Below the pieces are notes generated by a model. It saw only the letters and a list, made by a program, of their open reading frames with translations, had not been told where the DNA came from and made no database searches. Positions 13,320 to 23,420 of a stretch of 33,120 nt of DNA are shown here, one piece after another (the first letter of the stretch is position 1; each line of letters starts with the position of its first letter). The stretch covers positions 1 through 33,120 of the forward strand of contig JANXVA010000078.1 of assembly GCA_025351875.1 (NCBI GenBank), given 5' to 3'. Source of the DNA: Myxococcales bacterium (GTDB lineage Bacteria; Myxococcota_A; Polyangia; Polyangiales; Polyangiaceae). A program made the translations under genes and the position numbers.

Positions 13320-14828
13320 TCACTCGGCCGGGCAGGACGTCTTGGTCGGTGGCTTCGACGGGTCGAGGAGGAACTGCGTGACGACGTCACGAACACACGA
13401 GCTGTGGAGCGCCGCCGCGTGGCCGTCGCCCTCGTACGTGAGGACACTCGAGCCGTTTCCGAGCTGACTCACCAGCTCCGCGCCCTGCGCATATCCGGTG
13501 ATCGGATCGAACCGGCCGGAGATCACGAGAGCCTTTGGTGCCGCAGCCGCGTTCACTGCCACACGCGCGCCCGAACGCGCGTGCGGCCACCCCGCGCAGA
13601 GCGCCCAAGGGAGGAGCGCCGCCACTCCTCGTGGGTGCGCGACTCGCTGCGCTGCGGCGAAGGTCTGGAACGCATCGACCGTAGGCACGGCGCTGAACGG
13701 CTGATCGAGACACGCGATCGCGAGAAGCCCCAGCACCGTCGTGTCGTAGTGGGCGTCGGCGGTGCGACCCATCAAGGCGTCGGCTCCGACGAGGAGCTTC
13801 GTGGCGTCACCGGCCTCTGCCGCCGCGAGCTCGGAGGCGAGCCCACGCCAGTCCGCCGTGCGAAGACCGTCGGCGAGCGCGAAGTGCAGATCGACGAGCG
13901 ACAGCCTGCGCGCGCCCGCGGCGAGCCCGCCCTCGGTCTTCGCCTTCGCCACGAGCGTATCGAGCCGCTGGCCGACGGCCGCGGGATCTGCGCTGGTTGC
14001 TCCCGTCCCCCGCAGCGCGCAGGCGGCGTCGCGCGCGCAGGCCTCGAAGAATCTCGCGAAGCCGAGCTCGTAGCTCGCGCCCTGCTCGGCGATGTCGCCC
14101 TCGAGATCCCGAGCCAGCACCGTCGCCGAATCGAGCGCGAAGGCACGAACGCGGTCGGGAAAGAGCGTCGCGTAGGTCGCGCCGAGCCAGGTGCCGTACG
14201 AGAAGCCGAGGTAGTTCAGCTTCTCCTCGCCGAGCGCCTCGCGGATCCGGTCGAGATCGCGCGCCGCGTTCTCGGTGTTCATCGTGCGGAGCACGCGTGC
14301 GTCGGCCTTTGCGAGGCAGCCTCCGAGCAACGCGGTGCGAAGCTCGGTCACCGCCTGGAGGGAGCCGGGCGTCTCGAGCGTGAGATCGGTGCTGCGGAGT
14401 CGCTCGAAGAGCGCGTCGTCGCTGCAAGCGATGGGTGCGCTGCGCCCGATGCCGCGCCAGTCGAACGTGACGACGTCGAACCTCGTGGTCGCCTCGGAGA
14501 AAGCTGCGCTCAGGACGGGATACGTCGTGGCGAGCCGCTCGACGAACGCCTGCCCGGGGCCGCCCGGATTGACGACCACCGCACCGAGCCGCGCGGCGGG
14601 GTCCTTCGCCGGCGCTCGCAAAAGGGCGATCGAGATCTTCGCGCCCCCGGGGTCGGCGTAGTCGACAGGCACGTCGACCGTCGCGCACTCGTAGTCGCCC
14701 TCGCAAGGCGTGAAGGTGACTCGCTTGCTCGTTGCGCCGCCGTCCGAAGATCCGCAGGCCGCTCCGAGCACGGCGGACGCCATGATCGCCAGCACTGCAC
14801 CCCTCGCGCCGCGGCTTGCCCTCGTCAT
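13320..14828 (-). CDS. Secreted TAP-like alpha/beta hydrolase (tripeptidyl aminopeptidase family), lipoprotein
   Basis: 502 residues. The lipoprotein signal ends in LGAACGSS (Cys25). VVNPGGPGQAFVE forms the oxyanion region and FDVVTFDWRGIGRS the next strand. The nucleophile elbow is YLGFSYGTWLG (Ser210). Near the C terminus ALVISGRFDPITGYAQG carries the acid Asp, and TYEGDGHAAALHSSC carries the catalytic His. This is the layout of the SlpD/SlpE/TAP-type secreted aminopeptidases (S33-like with a TAP C-terminal domain), which clip short peptides from N termini; the substrate here is not known. The ATG is 1 nt after the stop of the NarL-type regulator, so the two are almost certainly co-transcribed. 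This ties an exported peptidase to the two-component system. Confidence 0.88.
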   Translation of the reverse strand: MTRASRGARGAVLAIMASAVLGAACGSSDGGATSKRVTFTPCEGDYECATVDVPVDYADPGGAKISIALLRAPAKDPAARLGAVVVNPGGPGQAFVERLATTYPVLSAAFSEATTRFDVVTFDWRGIGRSAPIACSDDALFERLRSTDLTLETPGSLQAVTELRTALLGGCLAKADARVLRTMNTENAARDLDRIREALGEEKLNYLGFSYGTWLGATYATLFPDRVRAFALDSATVLARDLEGDIAEQGASYELGFARFFEACARDAACALRGTGATSADPAAVGQRLDTLVAKAKTEGGLAAGARRLSLVDLHFALADGLRTADWRGLASELAAAEAGDATKLLVGADALMGRTADAHYDTTVLGLLAIACLDQPFSAVPTVDAFQTFAAAQRVAHPRGVAALLPWALCAGWPHARSGARVAVNAAAAPKALVISGRFDPITGYAQGAELVSQLGNGSSVLTYEGDGHAAALHSSCVRDVVTQFLLDPSKPPTKTSCPAE

Positions 14829-14829
14829 G

Positions 14830-15492
14830 TCACGCGAGACGGTACGCGGTCGTGACCGCTTCGGCCTTCGAGCAGACGTGGAGCTTCCGGTACATCGCCC
14901 GCACGTGATGGCGGACGGTGTTGACGCTCATCGAGAGCATGCGCGCCACATCTTCGTAGGTCGCGCCCTTCGCGAAGAGCTCGATGATCTCGCGCTCGCG
15001 ATCGGTGAGATCGGAGGCATCGGGCGAGCCGTCGTGCGCGGCCACCACACCGGCGCTCGGGGTCGGAGCGAGTCCGCGACCCCTGAAATCGTCGAGCAGT
15101 CTCCGCGCGATGGTCGGCGAGATCGGCGCGCCGCCATCTCGCAGGATCGCGAGCGACTCCGCCACGCGCGTCGCCGCGTCACCCTTCAGCAGGTACCCCG
15201 AGGCGCCCGCCGCGAGAGCCTTGTAGACGTTGTCGTCGTCGTCCCAGACGGTGAGGATGAGGACGGCCATCTGCTTCTCGACGGCGAGCTGGATGAGCGG
15301 GATCGAGCTGCCGTCCGAGAGCTGCAGATCGAAGACACCGATCGTTGCGCCCGAGCTCTCGATCGCCTTCTTGCCGGAGACCACGTCTCCAGCCTGCGCG
15401 ACGACCGTGAAAGCGCCGTCGCTTTCGATCTGCCGCACGACCCCCCGCCGGATCATGGGGTCGTCTTCGAGCACGAGAACCGCGTCCGTCAC
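14830..15492 (-). CDS. NarL/LuxR-family response regulator
   Basis: 220 residues from the GTG at 15492; the track adds 12 unlikely residues. The receiver has Glu9-Asp10-Asp11, phosphoacceptor Asp55 in IGVFDLQLSDG, Thr81 and Lys103 (LLKGD). The C-terminal LuxR-type helix-turn-helix is clear: LTDREREIIELFAKGATYED, then VARMLSMSVNTVRHHVRAMYRKL. It should bind DNA as a dimer after phosphorylation. It is divergent from a kinase whose last module is a HisKA_3-type (NarX/DesK class) transmitter, the class that normally pairs with NarL-type regulators. The downstream gene, 1 nt away, is the TAP-like peptidase. There is no ribosome binding site, but TATACT lies 8 nt before the GTG, suggesting a leaderless mRNA. 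Confidence 0.93.
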   Translation of the reverse strand: MTDAVLVLEDDPMIRRGVVRQIESDGAFTVVAQAGDVVSGKKAIESSGATIGVFDLQLSDGSSIPLIQLAVEKQMAVLILTVWDDDDNVYKALAAGASGYLLKGDAATRVAESLAILRDGGAPISPTIARRLLDDFRGRGLAPTPSAGVVAAHDGSPDASDLTDREREIIELFAKGATYEDVARMLSMSVNTVRHHVRAMYRKLHVCSKAEAVTTAYRLA

Positions 15493-15500
15493 AGGTCCGA

Positions 15501-15528
15501 AGTATACTGTGGCCTCAGGCCATCGCAA
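15501..15528. promoter_or_regulatory. Divergent promoter with palindromes between regulator and kinase genes
   Basis: AGTATACT (15501-15508) is palindromic and supplies TATACT on both strands. On the minus strand TTGCGA (15528-15523), a 16-nt spacer and TATACT form a good housekeeping-type promoter for the regulator gene, with the GTG 8 nt downstream. The spacer contains the perfect dyad TGGCCT-C-AGGCCA (15510-15522), well placed for an operator. For the kinase, TATACT lies about 50 nt upstream of its GTG. Confidence 0.55.
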
Positions 15529-15558
15529 TCGTCAGAGTCCGGAAATCGTGGGTAAATC

Positions 15559-17961
15559 GTGACGAAAACAGGCGGTGAGGCGCCCGCGCACACCTCGCTC
15601 GATCCCCAGGAGCGCTTCGAGCGAGCGTTCGAGATCGAGCGCGGAGAGACCATCCAGACGCGTTCGCGCTGGATCTGGGGCGGCTCGCTCACGATGTTCT
15701 TCGTCAGCCTCGTTTTCATCGACCGGGCGGTCTTCACGTGGGGGCAGGCGCTGACCATCCGCGTGCCCGAGCTGGCGCTCGCCATCACCATGCTCGTCTA
15801 CCTGCGGAAGCCCCGCCCGCGGGTCCAGATCGAGCGCTGGACGACGCTCGGCTGGACCCTCATGGCGGTCCTCAGCAGCTGGGGCTTCACGGTGGTTCCT
15901 CACGAGAAGCTGCCGGCCAAGGTGGCCGCGCTCACGCTCTCGGTGATCGTCGTCTGCCTCCTCGGTGCGTTCACCTGGCAGACGTCGTTCCTCATCGCGC
16001 TGATCACGATGCTCTCGCTCTCGTCCCTGCTCTACGTGGGCGCGAACTCGCTCTACATGCTCACGATGACGGTGGTCGGCTTCGCGTGGGGCGTCATCAT
16101 CGTCTCTGCGGCGGCCCGCGATCGGCTGAAGCGCAAGGAGCTCGTCGCCCGCCTCGGTCTCATCGAGGCGAACGAGAAGCTCCAGCGCGAGGACGAGCTG
16201 AAGAGGCGCCTCTTCGTGAACCTGAGCCATGATCTGCGGACGCCGCTCGCGATCGTCCGCGGCGAGGCGGCGATGCTGCGTGGCTCCGGGCGCATGGATG
16301 ACGACGACGCCGCGCTCGCGCGCGTCGAGCGCAACGCCGCGGCGCTCTCCCAGCTCGCAGACCAGCTGCTCGACCTCGCGCGCCTCGAGGCAGGCCAGAT
16401 GCCCGTTCGCGCACGCGCGTGCGATGTCGGCCAGATGGTTCGCGACGTCGCATCGCAGCTCACGCCGCCCGGCGAGCCGCGCATCCACACGAAGACCGAA
16501 GGCGAGCGCGTCGTCAGCCGGGTCGACCCGACACACCTCCAGCGCATCCTGACGAACCTCGTCGCGAACGCGCTCCGTCAGGCAAAGCCTGGTGGAGAGC
16601 CCGGGCTCGTCACGCTCTTCGTCCGAAGTGAGAAGGCAACCAACCACGTCGTCCTCGACGTCGTCGACGAGGGCCCAGGCGTACCGCCCGAGCGCCGCGT
16701 GGCGATCTTCACGCGCTTCGTCTCGTTCGACTCCGACGGCAACACGGCGTCCGGGATCGGTCTCCCGCTCGCGCGCGAGCTGGCGATGCTGAACGCGGGG
16801 ACGCTCGAGCTGCTCCATGACGTCCGGCCGACGACGTTTCGCCTGACGCTGCCCGCCACGTCGGACGAGCCGGATGCGATCGAGCCCGAGCTCGCCGCCG
16901 CTCTCGCGCCTGCGCCGACTCGCGAGGCTCGCCACGCGCCGCCTTCGACGCTTGCTCCCGGATCGCGCCCTCGGCGCCGGATCCTGGTCGTCGAGGACAA
17001 TCCGGACATGGGCCTTCTGCTGGTGCGTTCGCTCGGCAGCGCGTATCGGGTCGAGCACGTCACGCGCGTGGCCGACGCGCTCGCGGTGCTCGCCGAGGAC
17101 CCGCCCACCGCCGTCCTCTCGGACGTCATGCTCCCCGACGGGACCGGCTACGAGGTCCTCGCTGCGATTCGCGGCCGTCGCGATCTCGATCGGATGCCCG
17201 TCGTGCTGGTCTCCGCGCTCGGCGAGGTGGACGAGCGCGTGCGAGGTCTCTCGGCAGGCGCCGACGACTACGTCGCGAAGCCGTTCGCCCCTGAGGAGCT
17301 GCGCAGCCGCGTCAACGCGGCGATCGACCGCGCCGACACGTGGGGACAGGCGCTCGCAGCGCAGCGAGACGTCCTCCTGATGGAGGTCCACGACGGCGTG
17401 AGCGCGAGCCTGTCGCGTGCATCGATCCTGCTCTCCGATCTCGAGCCGCACCTCTCCCCCGAGACGGTGGCTCACGCGCGCGACGCGATCCGTGACGGGC
17501 TCGACGAGGTGCGCGCCATCACGCGTCTGCTCGCGCCGAAGCCAGCTTCGTTCCTCGCGCTGACCGCGGAGATCCGTCGCGCGATGGGCGACGCATGCGC
17601 CGCCGCCAAGCTCGAGCTCGACTTCGACGTGCAGAGCAGCGCCGACCTCGATGGCGCCACCGTGCCCGCCGGCACGGCTCACACGATGAGGCGCGTCGCG
17701 CGCGAGGCCACGACCAACACCATCAAGCACGCGAATGCGAAGCGGGTCGCCTGCCACGTGTCCGCGACGACGGAGTCGTTCGTCATGCGCATCCAGGACG
17801 ACGGTCGCGGGCTCCCGGAGGAGCGATCGGACGGGCAGGGACTTGGCATCATGAGCCGTCGTGTCGGACGCGTCGGCGGCACCGTGGAGCACGGAAATCG
17901 CGCGAGAGACGCGGGCGGCGGGGCGTACGTCGAGGTGCGCTTGCCCAGGCTCTCGCGCTGA
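15559..17961 (+). CDS. Membrane double histidine kinase: HisKA-HATPase-receiver-HisKA_3-HATPase
   Basis: 800 residues. The N terminus has about six membrane helices (roughly 40-184) with little periplasmic sequence. Module 1 is a classical kinase: LFVNLSHDLRTPLAIV (His224), N box NLVANALR, G1 DEGPGVP, G2 SGIGLPLA. A receiver follows (about 474-590) with VVEDN, Asp522 in LSDVMLPDG and Lys574 (AKPF). Module 2 is a NarX/DesK-type transmitter: LLMEVHDGVSASLSRAS (His611), EATTNTIKHA, DDGRGLP and GQGLGIMSRR. Module 2 is the type that phosphorylates NarL-type regulators, and such a regulator is encoded divergently. An internal relay from module 1 to the receiver, gating module 2, is inferred. The start is GTG 15559 with only a weak ribosome site. 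The C terminus is complete and no module shows frameshift damage. Confidence 0.93.
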   Translation: MTKTGGEAPAHTSLDPQERFERAFEIERGETIQTRSRWIWGGSLTMFFVSLVFIDRAVFTWGQALTIRVPELALAITMLVYLRKPRPRVQIERWTTLGWTLMAVLSSWGFTVVPHEKLPAKVAALTLSVIVVCLLGAFTWQTSFLIALITMLSLSSLLYVGANSLYMLTMTVVGFAWGVIIVSAAARDRLKRKELVARLGLIEANEKLQREDELKRRLFVNLSHDLRTPLAIVRGEAAMLRGSGRMDDDDAALARVERNAAALSQLADQLLDLARLEAGQMPVRARACDVGQMVRDVASQLTPPGEPRIHTKTEGERVVSRVDPTHLQRILTNLVANALRQAKPGGEPGLVTLFVRSEKATNHVVLDVVDEGPGVPPERRVAIFTRFVSFDSDGNTASGIGLPLARELAMLNAGTLELLHDVRPTTFRLTLPATSDEPDAIEPELAAALAPAPTREARHAPPSTLAPGSRPRRRILVVEDNPDMGLLLVRSLGSAYRVEHVTRVADALAVLAEDPPTAVLSDVMLPDGTGYEVLAAIRGRRDLDRMPVVLVSALGEVDERVRGLSAGADDYVAKPFAPEELRSRVNAAIDRADTWGQALAAQRDVLLMEVHDGVSASLSRASILLSDLEPHLSPETVAHARDAIRDGLDEVRAITRLLAPKPASFLALTAEIRRAMGDACAAAKLELDFDVQSSADLDGATVPAGTAHTMRRVAREATTNTIKHANAKRVACHVSATTESFVMRIQDDGRGLPEERSDGQGLGIMSRRVGRVGGTVEHGNRARDAGGGAYVEVRLPRLSR

Positions 17962-20170: not shown

Positions 20171-20217
20171 GGGTGTCCTTTAGCGTCTCTGGATGGCAAC
20201 GAGGTGCCGTTCGCGCA

Positions 20218-22908
20218 TCATCGGGCGCGCGCCCGGGCGCGGACGGCGAGTACGGCGGCGAGCGCGAAGAGGCCTGCAAACAGGCCGGATCGCGTGTTTC
20301 CCACGGGAGCCGGAGCGCCGGTCACGCGGCAGCCGCACCCGCTGCCGGCGGCGGCGAGCGAGCTGTCGGCCTTGCCGCGGATGAGCGGGAGGCTGACGCG
20401 GCCGACGTTGCCCTCCTCGTCCTTCACCTCGAGGTCCACGGCGCTGGAGGCGTCGGCGTCGAACGAGGCGACGCTGCCGAGGGCCGCCCACTCCGACCAG
20501 CCACCTTCGCCGATGCGGCGTCGAGCGACGAGAGCGGTCTCGGGCGAGACGTAGTCGATCGCGCGTACGGACACGCGGTCACCGTCACGCTTGCCCTCGA
20601 TGCGCGGAGGGAGCGTGTCGATCACGAACGGCAGCTCGGCGGGCGTCCCGTCCTCCGAGGCCATGTCACCGACGACGCGCGACGAGACGTGGAGCACGTG
20701 CTTGCCCTGGAGGATCATCGTGTCCTGATCGACGACGAGGTCGCTCTCCTGCGTCCAGGCGGAGTGCGTGCCCTCGTCGATCCACCACGTGTGCTCGGTG
20801 CGGTGCGAGGCGATGCCCTCGACGTGCACGCGCAGGGTGGGGAAGCTCGCGCGCGACGCGGTGAGGCCCATCGCGTCCGGGTGCACGATCTTCTCGACGA
20901 TGGATGCGCGCGTGTCGGCCTCCTCGTGCGCGGTGCCGGCGGCCTTGGTGATGTTCGCGAAGATGGCGAGGAAATCGTCGGTGCCGCTCGTCAGCTTGCG
21001 GATGCCGCCCGGCGGGATGTCGAGCCCGAGACCGAAGCTCGCGAGCGCGGTCGAGAGGTCGATTGGCTTGAGGCCGCCGCCGAGGAACTGCCCGAGGATC
21101 CCGCCGAGGAGGCCCGTGACTCCGCCGGAGACCATGCCGGGATCGTCCATGAGGAGATCGGCGTTGGTAACGCTCGCGTTCGCGAGCGTGAGATCTCCGA
21201 TGACGGGAAGGAGGCCGCCGTTCGGGTTCGTCTTCGGATCCTTGCCGGTCTGGAGGTTGACCGGGATCGTGACGTCGGCCGTGTACGTGAAGAAGCGGAC
21301 GAAGCGATCGAGCGAGAAGACGTAGAAGTCGACGGCGAACTTCTCGAGCGTGATCTTGAGGAGCGGGTCCGTCTTCACGTCGGTGCCGCCGCCGAGCTTG
21401 ATCTTCGGCGGTGCGCCGGGGCGGGTGGTGACGGCCGCGGCGGCGGCGTTCTGCTCGAACGCGAGCAGCTTGATCGACGGGGCGAGGATGCTGAGATATC
21501 CGGTCTGCAGCTGGTCGACCTGCGCGGTCGAGATGCCGAGGCAGAGCACGCCGCTGTTGAAGGCGCTCGTCGCTGCGTGATCGAGGTAGCGGCCCGCCAG
21601 CGCGAAGCCGAGGTGGGGACCCGGCGTCGCCGCCGGCCATGGCGTGATCGTGTCGCCCTCGAGCTCCTTCGGGATCGGGATGCCTTGCGGCGGCGGGTTC
21701 GGAACGACGGTGACGCACTTGGCCGTCGGCTGGGGCTGCGCGCCGCCGAGCATCTTGAGCGAGATGCCGTTGGTGTTGTTGTCCTCCGCGGGAACGGGCG
21801 GCTTGCGCGGCGTCCACGCGGGGAGGGTCGTGACGCCCGGCGCGGGGTTCATGTCGCCGGCCGACGCGAGGACGAAGTCGAGACCGCCCTGCGTCCCCGG
21901 CGAGAAGCTGCTGAGCGCCTTCGACAGATCCATTCGCCCGTCGATGCCGAGGAGCGAGGGCACGCACTCCTTCGTCCCGGTGAAGACGCACTTGGTGGCC
22001 TTCGTGAGGTCGGCGTCGTCGGGCTCCGAGCCTGTCGGGCATGCCGGTGTCACCGTGGGCGTCGGCTTCGTGCAGAACGCGCTCGCGAGCGCGGTCTTCA
22101 CCTGGCTCTTCACGCCGTCGATGAGCGTGTTGAAGGCGAGGTCCTTCACGGTGTCGAAGAAGCCCTGGCAGATGCCGAGGCCGCCGCAGGTGTCGTCGCA
22201 GACCTCGACGTCGTTCTTGGTGATGCCGATGTCGATGACCGCGTTGTCGACGTCGACCTTCGTGTAGCCGTCGCGCGGCGCGCGTGTCTCGGTGATGAGC
22301 GGGAGCTCGATGTTGAGCGGGAAGTCCTTGAACGGGAGCGTGTCCGAGCCGCGAAGACCGGCAGCGCAGAGGTTCTGGCTGGGGACCTGCGTCTTGTCCG
22401 CGGCGACGACGTATGCCTTGACGGTGAAGCCGACCGAGAACGAGACGGGCAGATCGCGGATGCGAACGGGAAGCAAGCCGTCGATCTTCACGCGGTTGGG
22501 GGTGATCGAGTTCACGCGGAGCTTGGATTGGCCGAGCGCGATCTCCGCGTTGCACTGCGCGGGGGTGGGCATCGCGACGGAGCAGACCTTCGGGTTGCCG
22601 CTGCCCGGCGGAATGTTGAACGACGCGACGCCGGGCTTGCCGCCCGCGCCGGCGCCCGCGCCGAGCGCCTTCTCGGCGAGTGTGCCGATGTTCTCCTGGA
22701 GGAAGGTGAGGCCGGGGCGCGTGACTCGAACCGAAGCGGCGTTGGGGATGGTGCTCGCCTTCGGGAAGCCGCCGGGGAGCGGGGTGGTGCCGCAGGAGGC
22801 GCAGCCGCCGGAGCAGCCGCCGCCGCTGCACGAGGCAATGAGGAGGAAGAGGGCTACGAGAAGGACGCGCTGGACGAGGTGCTTGTGAGCTTTGCTGGGG
22901 AAAAACAT
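20218..22908 (-). CDS. Large Cys-rich lipoprotein with MYXO-CTERM sorting tail
   Basis: 896 residues. The N terminus has a lipoprotein signal (LVALFLLIASC, Cys27), directly followed by a Cys/Gly cluster GGGCSGGCASCG. The long central part (about 60-840) has no domain I recognise. It contains paired Cys (VCDDTCGGLGICQ) and beta-rich stretches; the last part (about 700-840, VSSRVVGDMASEDG, LPPRIEGKRDGDRVSV) looks Ig-like. The C terminus GSGCGCRVTG, a spacer, then GLFAGLFALAAVLAV and RARARAR matches the MYXO-CTERM plan: Cys motif, membrane helix, Arg tail. Myxosortase-type processing would then place it at the surface. The ATG at 22908 has AGAGGA at a good distance. The VWA lipoprotein gene follows 47 nt downstream. 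The 924-residue plus-strand ORF over the same DNA is a shadow. Confidence 0.88.
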   Translation of the reverse strand: MFFPSKAHKHLVQRVLLVALFLLIASCSGGGCSGGCASCGTTPLPGGFPKASTIPNAASVRVTRPGLTFLQENIGTLAEKALGAGAGAGGKPGVASFNIPPGSGNPKVCSVAMPTPAQCNAEIALGQSKLRVNSITPNRVKIDGLLPVRIRDLPVSFSVGFTVKAYVVAADKTQVPSQNLCAAGLRGSDTLPFKDFPLNIELPLITETRAPRDGYTKVDVDNAVIDIGITKNDVEVCDDTCGGLGICQGFFDTVKDLAFNTLIDGVKSQVKTALASAFCTKPTPTVTPACPTGSEPDDADLTKATKCVFTGTKECVPSLLGIDGRMDLSKALSSFSPGTQGGLDFVLASAGDMNPAPGVTTLPAWTPRKPPVPAEDNNTNGISLKMLGGAQPQPTAKCVTVVPNPPPQGIPIPKELEGDTITPWPAATPGPHLGFALAGRYLDHAATSAFNSGVLCLGISTAQVDQLQTGYLSILAPSIKLLAFEQNAAAAAVTTRPGAPPKIKLGGGTDVKTDPLLKITLEKFAVDFYVFSLDRFVRFFTYTADVTIPVNLQTGKDPKTNPNGGLLPVIGDLTLANASVTNADLLMDDPGMVSGGVTGLLGGILGQFLGGGLKPIDLSTALASFGLGLDIPPGGIRKLTSGTDDFLAIFANITKAAGTAHEEADTRASIVEKIVHPDAMGLTASRASFPTLRVHVEGIASHRTEHTWWIDEGTHSAWTQESDLVVDQDTMILQGKHVLHVSSRVVGDMASEDGTPAELPFVIDTLPPRIEGKRDGDRVSVRAIDYVSPETALVARRRIGEGGWSEWAALGSVASFDADASSAVDLEVKDEEGNVGRVSLPLIRGKADSSLAAAGSGCGCRVTGAPAPVGNTRSGLFAGLFALAAVLAVRARARAR

Positions 22909-23072
22909 GGCCCGTCCTCTGCGCGGGGGAAGACCCCGGGCAACTGAGGGGAGTTTGTATCACCTGGGAGGGGGGCGCGCGCGTCTCAACGGGAGCTTGA
23001 TTGGGGTTCCGGGAGGGGAGATCCGGGCACGGGCACGTGGCGCGCTCGGGGCATCTTTGGTGGGGGCGGTGG

Positions 23073-23078
23073 TAGGCT
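23073..23078 (+). promoter_or_regulatory. Putative -10 element (TAGGCT), leaderless type
   Basis: TAGGCT ends 6 nt before the GTG at 23085, with no ribosome binding site between them. Confidence 0.35.
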
Positions 23079-23084
23079 GCGGGC

Positions 23085-23420
23085 GTGCGTCGCTGGATAT
23101 GTGTAAGTTGCATCTTTATCGTCGCGCTGACCGTGCCCGTCTACGCAAGCGCGCAGGGCGGGCCGATCGCAGACGCGAGCGCGGATTCGAGCCCCGTCGG
23201 CCCGGCCTCCGCCCCGAGCTCGACTGCGACCGCGAACCCGACCCCGCACCCGAGCGAGTCCGCGGCACCCGAGCCTCCGCCTCGCGCCGTCCGGGGTCCG
23301 GCCGTGCGCGAGCGTGCGGGCCGTCGCTCGCGTGGAGGGTCCGTCGCGTCGGGCGCGCTCATGCTCTTCATGCTCATCGCGTTCATGGGCTACTACGTCG
23401 TGAAGAAGCTCCGTCGCTGA
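23085..23420 (+). CDS. Small exported protein with C-terminal membrane anchor
   Basis: 111 residues. The signal peptide (MRRWICVSCIFIVALTVPVYASAQ) is probably cut after ASA near residue 23. A Pro/Ser/Ala/Thr-rich linker runs from about 25 to 72, followed by a basic patch (RERAGRRSRGG). A single membrane helix (ASGALMLFMLIAFMGYYVV) and a basic KKLRR end complete it. The layout is an exported segment tethered by a C-terminal helix. No domain is known to me. The helix plus basic tail lacks the Gly-Cys motif of MYXO-CTERM, so it should stay in the inner membrane. The start is GTG behind a TAGGCT box. A hairpin follows at 23439-23458. Confidence 0.65.
   Translation: MRRWICVSCIFIVALTVPVYASAQGGPIADASADSSPVGPASAPSSTATANPTPHPSESAAPEPPPRAVRGPAVRERAGRRSRGGSVASGALMLFMLIAFMGYYVVKKLRR

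Follow-up and report, generated by a model that had tools for sequence, protein, structure and literature searches.

The window analysed here, a 33,120-nucleotide stretch of a Myxococcales bacterium genome (contig JANXVA010000078.1), carries a gene for an 800-residue hybrid sensor kinase in which two transmitters (HK1 and HK2) are split by one receiver (REC) in a single chain (open reading frame 15559–17961, plus strand, GTG start). The protein begins with a predicted membrane domain of about six helices (residues about 38–186; 15670–16116), whose topology we infer from the AlphaFold helices at 16–58, 61–81, 88–112, 115–135, 140–159 and 163–242, the last of which continues into the dimerization and histidine phosphotransfer (DHp) domain of HK1. 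That first DHp is of the HisKA type (residues 215–279; 16201–16395; Pfam HisKA, 49 bits) with phospho-acceptor H224 (16228–16230), and it is followed by an HATPase_c domain (residues 323–434; 16525–16860). The receiver (residues 475–585; 16981–17313; Pfam Response_reg, 77 bits), with phospho-site D522 (17122–17124), S552 and K574, passes through its α5 and a signalling-helix connector (residues 578–607; 17290–17379) into a second DHp (residues 608–661; 17380–17541), where the phospho-acceptor H611 (17389–17391) stands in the motif HDGVSASL. Pfam also matches a second HATPase_c stretch. Another ATPase domain, that of HK2, occupies residues 699–797 (17653–17949; HATPase_c 41.7 bits for the domain alone, with HATPase_c_2 at 700–755 of the full protein). 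Pfam finds no PAS domain in the hybrid kinase, whereas members of the TodS family have one before each transmitter.

Divergent from the kinase gene lies a gene for a NarL/FixJ-type response regulator with a receiver and a GerE domain (14830–15492, minus strand; Pfam Response_reg 43.7 bits, GerE 49.9 bits). Its start is likely GTG 15492 rather than TTG 15528, because orthologues start at the equivalent VADAVVVLEDDP/VSDAVVVLEDDP. We aligned six kinase proteins, of which the others are 40–56% identical to that of the window, and a NarL-type regulator adjoins the kinase gene in all six (divergent in five, convergent in locus L087). The host genome yielded five GerE proteins; besides the regulator a single one of them carries a receiver, and as it is not NarL-like, the regulator is the only NarL-type one found there; HK2 is likewise the only DesK-class transmitter found at E ≤ 1e-6. 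With the genome 95% complete in 805 contigs, such counts of one are strong but not final. A first-pass annotation had proposed this regulator as the partner of the second kinase, and the pairing is borne out both by the constant adjacency and by the genome having yielded no other of either kind. HK2 probably controls the adjacent regulator.

Searches for full-length relatives of the kinase turned them up in 3 of 57 other close relatives, in 5 of 184 genomes from the order (host genome included) and, within the same class but in a different family, in one genome; the distribution is sparse but real. Across the six orthologues the invariant residues are H224, D225, T228, N333/N337, D370, G372/G374 and G399/G401 in HK1, including the N, G1, F and G2 boxes; E479/D480, D522, S552 and K574 in the receiver; and H611, D612, N720, D747/D748, G749/G751 and G759/G761 in HK2. 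The first-pass annotation had thus placed the three phosphorylated residues correctly and had rightly read all three modules as complete, none of them lacking its catalytic boxes. Because every catalytic residue is kept, selection maintains HK2 as a kinase and not merely as a phosphotransfer domain. This conservation also bears on the idea that two independent kinases were fused by chance and both feed one regulator past an inert or buffering receiver: myxobacterial two-component genes are known to have changed their domain architecture through indels and fusions (PMC4603909), but receiver and kinases are intact here and their order is fixed across families and orders, and we consider chance fusion very improbable. 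A search for receiver-bearing HisKA_3 paralogues in the same order returned 18 readable related frames, all without a receiver by a simple motif and resembling ordinary HisKA_3 kinases; none of them offers a local precursor of the fusion.

Profiles place the second transmitter in a class more clearly than its Pfam label does. HisKA_3 has a cut-off of 24 bits but reaches only 15.2 bits on the full protein and 19.5 bits on the domain taken alone, and it is matched at E ≤ 0.1 in 4 of 5 members. When a profile of HK2 built from five orthologues was searched against the PDB, the best solved relatives were VraS (3e-12), DevS, DosT and DesK (3e-12 to 6e-8), a likeness carried mostly by the ATPase domain. 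By these sequence profiles HK2 belongs to the NarX/DesK class, as the first-pass annotation had assigned it, although the HisKA_3 domain that it named stays under threshold.

What sets this protein apart from known precedents is that DesK-class output module, and not the layout as such. The idea in the first-pass annotation that a second transmitter is no usual ending for a hybrid is wrong, as TodS and StyS, LvrA and 392 censused proteins of the HK-receiver-HK type show (PMC4321377, PMC2442086, PMC5863495, PMC4558063, PMC4603909). The 2015 census placed those 392 transmitter-receiver-transmitter proteins in 251 species (PMC4558063); in myxobacteria, proteins combining at least two transmitters with one receiver show an 11.75-fold enrichment (26 proteins; PMC4603909), and Williams and Whitworth treat relays built from such proteins and a regulator (TRT-R), namely TodST and RedCDEF (PMC3018481). 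In TodS/TodT and StyS/StyR two transmitters surround one receiver and a NarL/FixJ-type regulator is encoded alongside, as here, but these kinases are soluble, sense through PAS1 and PAS2, have a PAS domain separating the receiver from HK2 and work by relay. The second transmitter of TodS is a HisKA module of the FixL type. StyS has been noted for its 'two different kinase cores' (PMC2442086). Closest in spacing is LvrA of Leptospira, with the same HK1-REC-HK2 order and nearly identical positions (H218-D524-H616 against H224-D522-H611 here; PMC5863495). Kinase-to-receiver-to-kinase control has been demonstrated between LvrA and its operon partner LvrB, a REC-HK protein; LvrA, however, is soluble with a PAS sensor, whereas the window protein has a membrane domain, a NarL-type regulator as partner and, unlike LvrA, a DesK-class HK2, and the NCBIfam LvrA profile covers only its HK1-REC part (residues 203–589). 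In the open-access literature we found no description of a protein in which an internal receiver stands between a HisKA first kinase and a DesK-class second kinase. The hybrid kinase is thus real and conserved and chains of kinase, receiver and kinase are already known, which leaves the DesK/NarX-class output kinase as mainly what is new.

Related layouts do occur elsewhere. Two Acidobacteriota proteins (L020:3456–6134 and L045:4060–6708) read REC-PAS-HisKA-HATPase-REC-HisKA_3, with HisKA_3 at 37 bits, and share with the window protein the order of HisKA, receiver and HisKA_3 in one chain; they differ in the extra N-terminal REC-PAS, in showing no membrane domain and in a degenerate second ATPase that has lost its G1 box. 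Both are unrelated to the window protein, and the order occurs independently in Acidobacteriota, where the second transmitter may possibly serve a relay merely as a phosphotransfer domain. In Paraburkholderia (L126:1366–5749) a CHASE5 hybrid kinase, a REC-PAS-HisKA_3 kinase and a NarL regulator stand in a row with overlapping frames, and Gloeocapsa (L124) and Nostoc (L125) have a REC-HisKA_3 kinase with a NarL regulator. In these three loci, all from other phyla, a receiver precedes HisKA_3-HATPase directly or through PAS and the regulator adjoins, but the genes are separate and HK1 is unfused (in L126 the hybrid kinase lies upstream), so that the window gene reads as a fused version of this modular pathway. 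Of seven plasmid-borne REC-HisKA_3 candidates, L121 and L123 were set aside as kinases without a receiver and L127 as a HisKA-only hybrid. Six apparent full-length matches (L010, L012, L023, L037, L068 and L075) were also rejected, as they carry two HisKA-like transmitters and belong to a different class. All of these but L012 form a Planctomycetota-type family with an N-terminal membrane stretch and the order HisKA-HATPase-REC-HisKA-HATPase, two HisKA kinases in one chain (the record of L037 is titled only uncultured bacterium).

The two linkers of the window protein bear on how its modules might communicate. Across the six orthologues the tether that joins HK1 to the receiver varies freely (27% identity, 15 of 38 columns gapped), whereas the connector between the receiver and HK2 is ungapped and K574 always lies 37 residues from H611, as expected for mechanical coupling. 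In an AlphaFold model of the kinase (mean predicted local distance difference test, pLDDT, 77; 11 sequences), a single helix (residues 578–626) runs without a break from receiver α5 into the second DHp. When the whole model was compared with the PDB by Foldseek, the phosphorylated-REC form of LvrB came out on top (E 5e-15); TM-scores were low, as is usual when a model consists of several hinged domains. As in LvrB, the receiver is joined straight to the DHp and catalytic domains by a helix that continues its α5. In LvrB itself, phosphorylation of the receiver by LvrA raises autokinase activity and a D56A mutant is unresponsive (PMC5863495), and activation runs through formation of an α-S coiled coil (PMC13269768).

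Because the helix between receiver and DHp is fixed and ungapped and LvrB offers a precedent, a model in which one kinase gates the other fits, and we place a probability of roughly 60% on the receiver gating HK2 through one continuous helix, with HK2 phosphorylating the regulator. A membrane or periplasmic cue would set HK1 autophosphorylation at H224, and HK1 would then transfer its phosphoryl group to D522 across the long flexible tether. Phosphorylation of D522 would alter the pairing of the two receivers in the dimer, and their α5 helices, unbroken into the HK2 DHp helices, would switch HK2 on or off. HK2 would autophosphorylate H611 with its own ATP and pass the phosphate to the adjacent regulator. 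Such a route from module 1 through receiver and module 2 to the regulator, with no Hpt step, is what the first-pass annotation had suggested; the fixed helix and LvrB agree with it, although by sequence the gating may run in either direction and a transfer from D522 to H611 may take place. We judge the chances to be even for the full proposal, in which a HisKA kinase and a DesK-class kinase form a cascade within a single chain, the first governing the second by way of the internal receiver and without relay, and the output goes to the sole NarL-type regulator that the genome yielded.

The gating could also be negative, with HK1 phosphorylating the receiver to shut off an HK2 that acts on the regulator by default, or to drain phosphate. 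The DxxxQ phosphatase signature of HisKA_3 is absent from HK2, as all six orthologues have A616 in place of the Q; a means of switching off that lies elsewhere would therefore be of use, and CheA3/CheS3 suggest that the sign of such gating can be negative (PMC3868531). LvrB, the nearest structural match, is nevertheless activated, and the alanine recurs in L092, the closest of the ordinary HisKA_3 kinases, a finding that led us to reject the lost glutamine as an adaptation specific to the layout; we hold negative gating to be improbable.

The main rival is a four-step relay of the TodS type, from H224 to D522 to H611 to the aspartate of the regulator, in which the second DHp would act as a phosphotransfer domain. 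TodS/TodT has the same order, a NarL/FixJ-type partner and His-Asp-His-Asp transfer (PMC4321377), the RedCDEF system of M. xanthus likewise uses a second transmitter as acceptor (PMC3018481), and the Acidobacteriota proteins, with no G1 box in the second ATPase, show a loss that a relay would permit. Yet all six orthologues here keep an intact second ATPase, the receiver runs straight into a rigid helix where TodS has a PAS domain between, and in the DesK class back-transfer from phosphorylated aspartate to histidine is minimal or marginal (PMC5231405), which disfavours a relay; we regard it as rather unlikely. Taken together, the connector pattern, the one-helix model, the match to LvrB and the DesK back-transfer favour gating over relay without settling the matter.

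Several points weigh against gating. TodS uses a relay (PMC4321377), and among TRT-R systems with a NarL/FixJ-type partner it is the closest to have been worked out; our proposed mechanism is drawn from sequence, a model and analogy. The modelled helix reaches a pLDDT of only about 62–70 around the second DHp, and the connector is shorter than that of LvrB. Only four hydrophobic a-positions (585, 592, 599 and 606) back a coiled coil, the d-positions being poor, and the heptad phase agrees only with the Acidobacteriota pair (37 versus 51) and not with other REC-HisKA_3 proteins (55, 60 and 69), which led us to drop the idea of a heptad rule holding for REC-HisKA_3 connectors in general.

If the receiver gates and does not relay, this kinase would provide one polypeptide for a direct test of receiver control over a DesK-class kinase. 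The receiver-α-S switch of LvrB would then not be tied to one DHp family, and the gating principle would extend to the HisKA_3 class. Moreover, the intact second ATPase here and the degenerate one in Acidobacteriota form a natural pair in which to ask what separates a second transmitter that is a kinase from one that is merely a phosphotransfer domain.

Beyond the regulator lies a gene for a TAP-like α/β hydrolase (13320–14828, minus strand; Pfam Abhydrolase_1 82.5 bits, Abhydrolase_4 72.6 bits), whose start codon is one base past the regulator stop. In three loci of the same order (L002/L005, L003 and L004/L006) the regulator is likewise followed by a TAP-like hydrolase, and we consider the gene in the window a candidate co-regulated gene or target of the system; the regulator would likely control at least its own operon, hydrolase included. 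A consensus promoter scan gave one weak match, on which we do not rely. Elsewhere in the window, very long open frames overlap on both strands (20173–22947, plus; 20218–22908 and 20666–23113, minus), owing to the high G+C content, and gene calls there need care.
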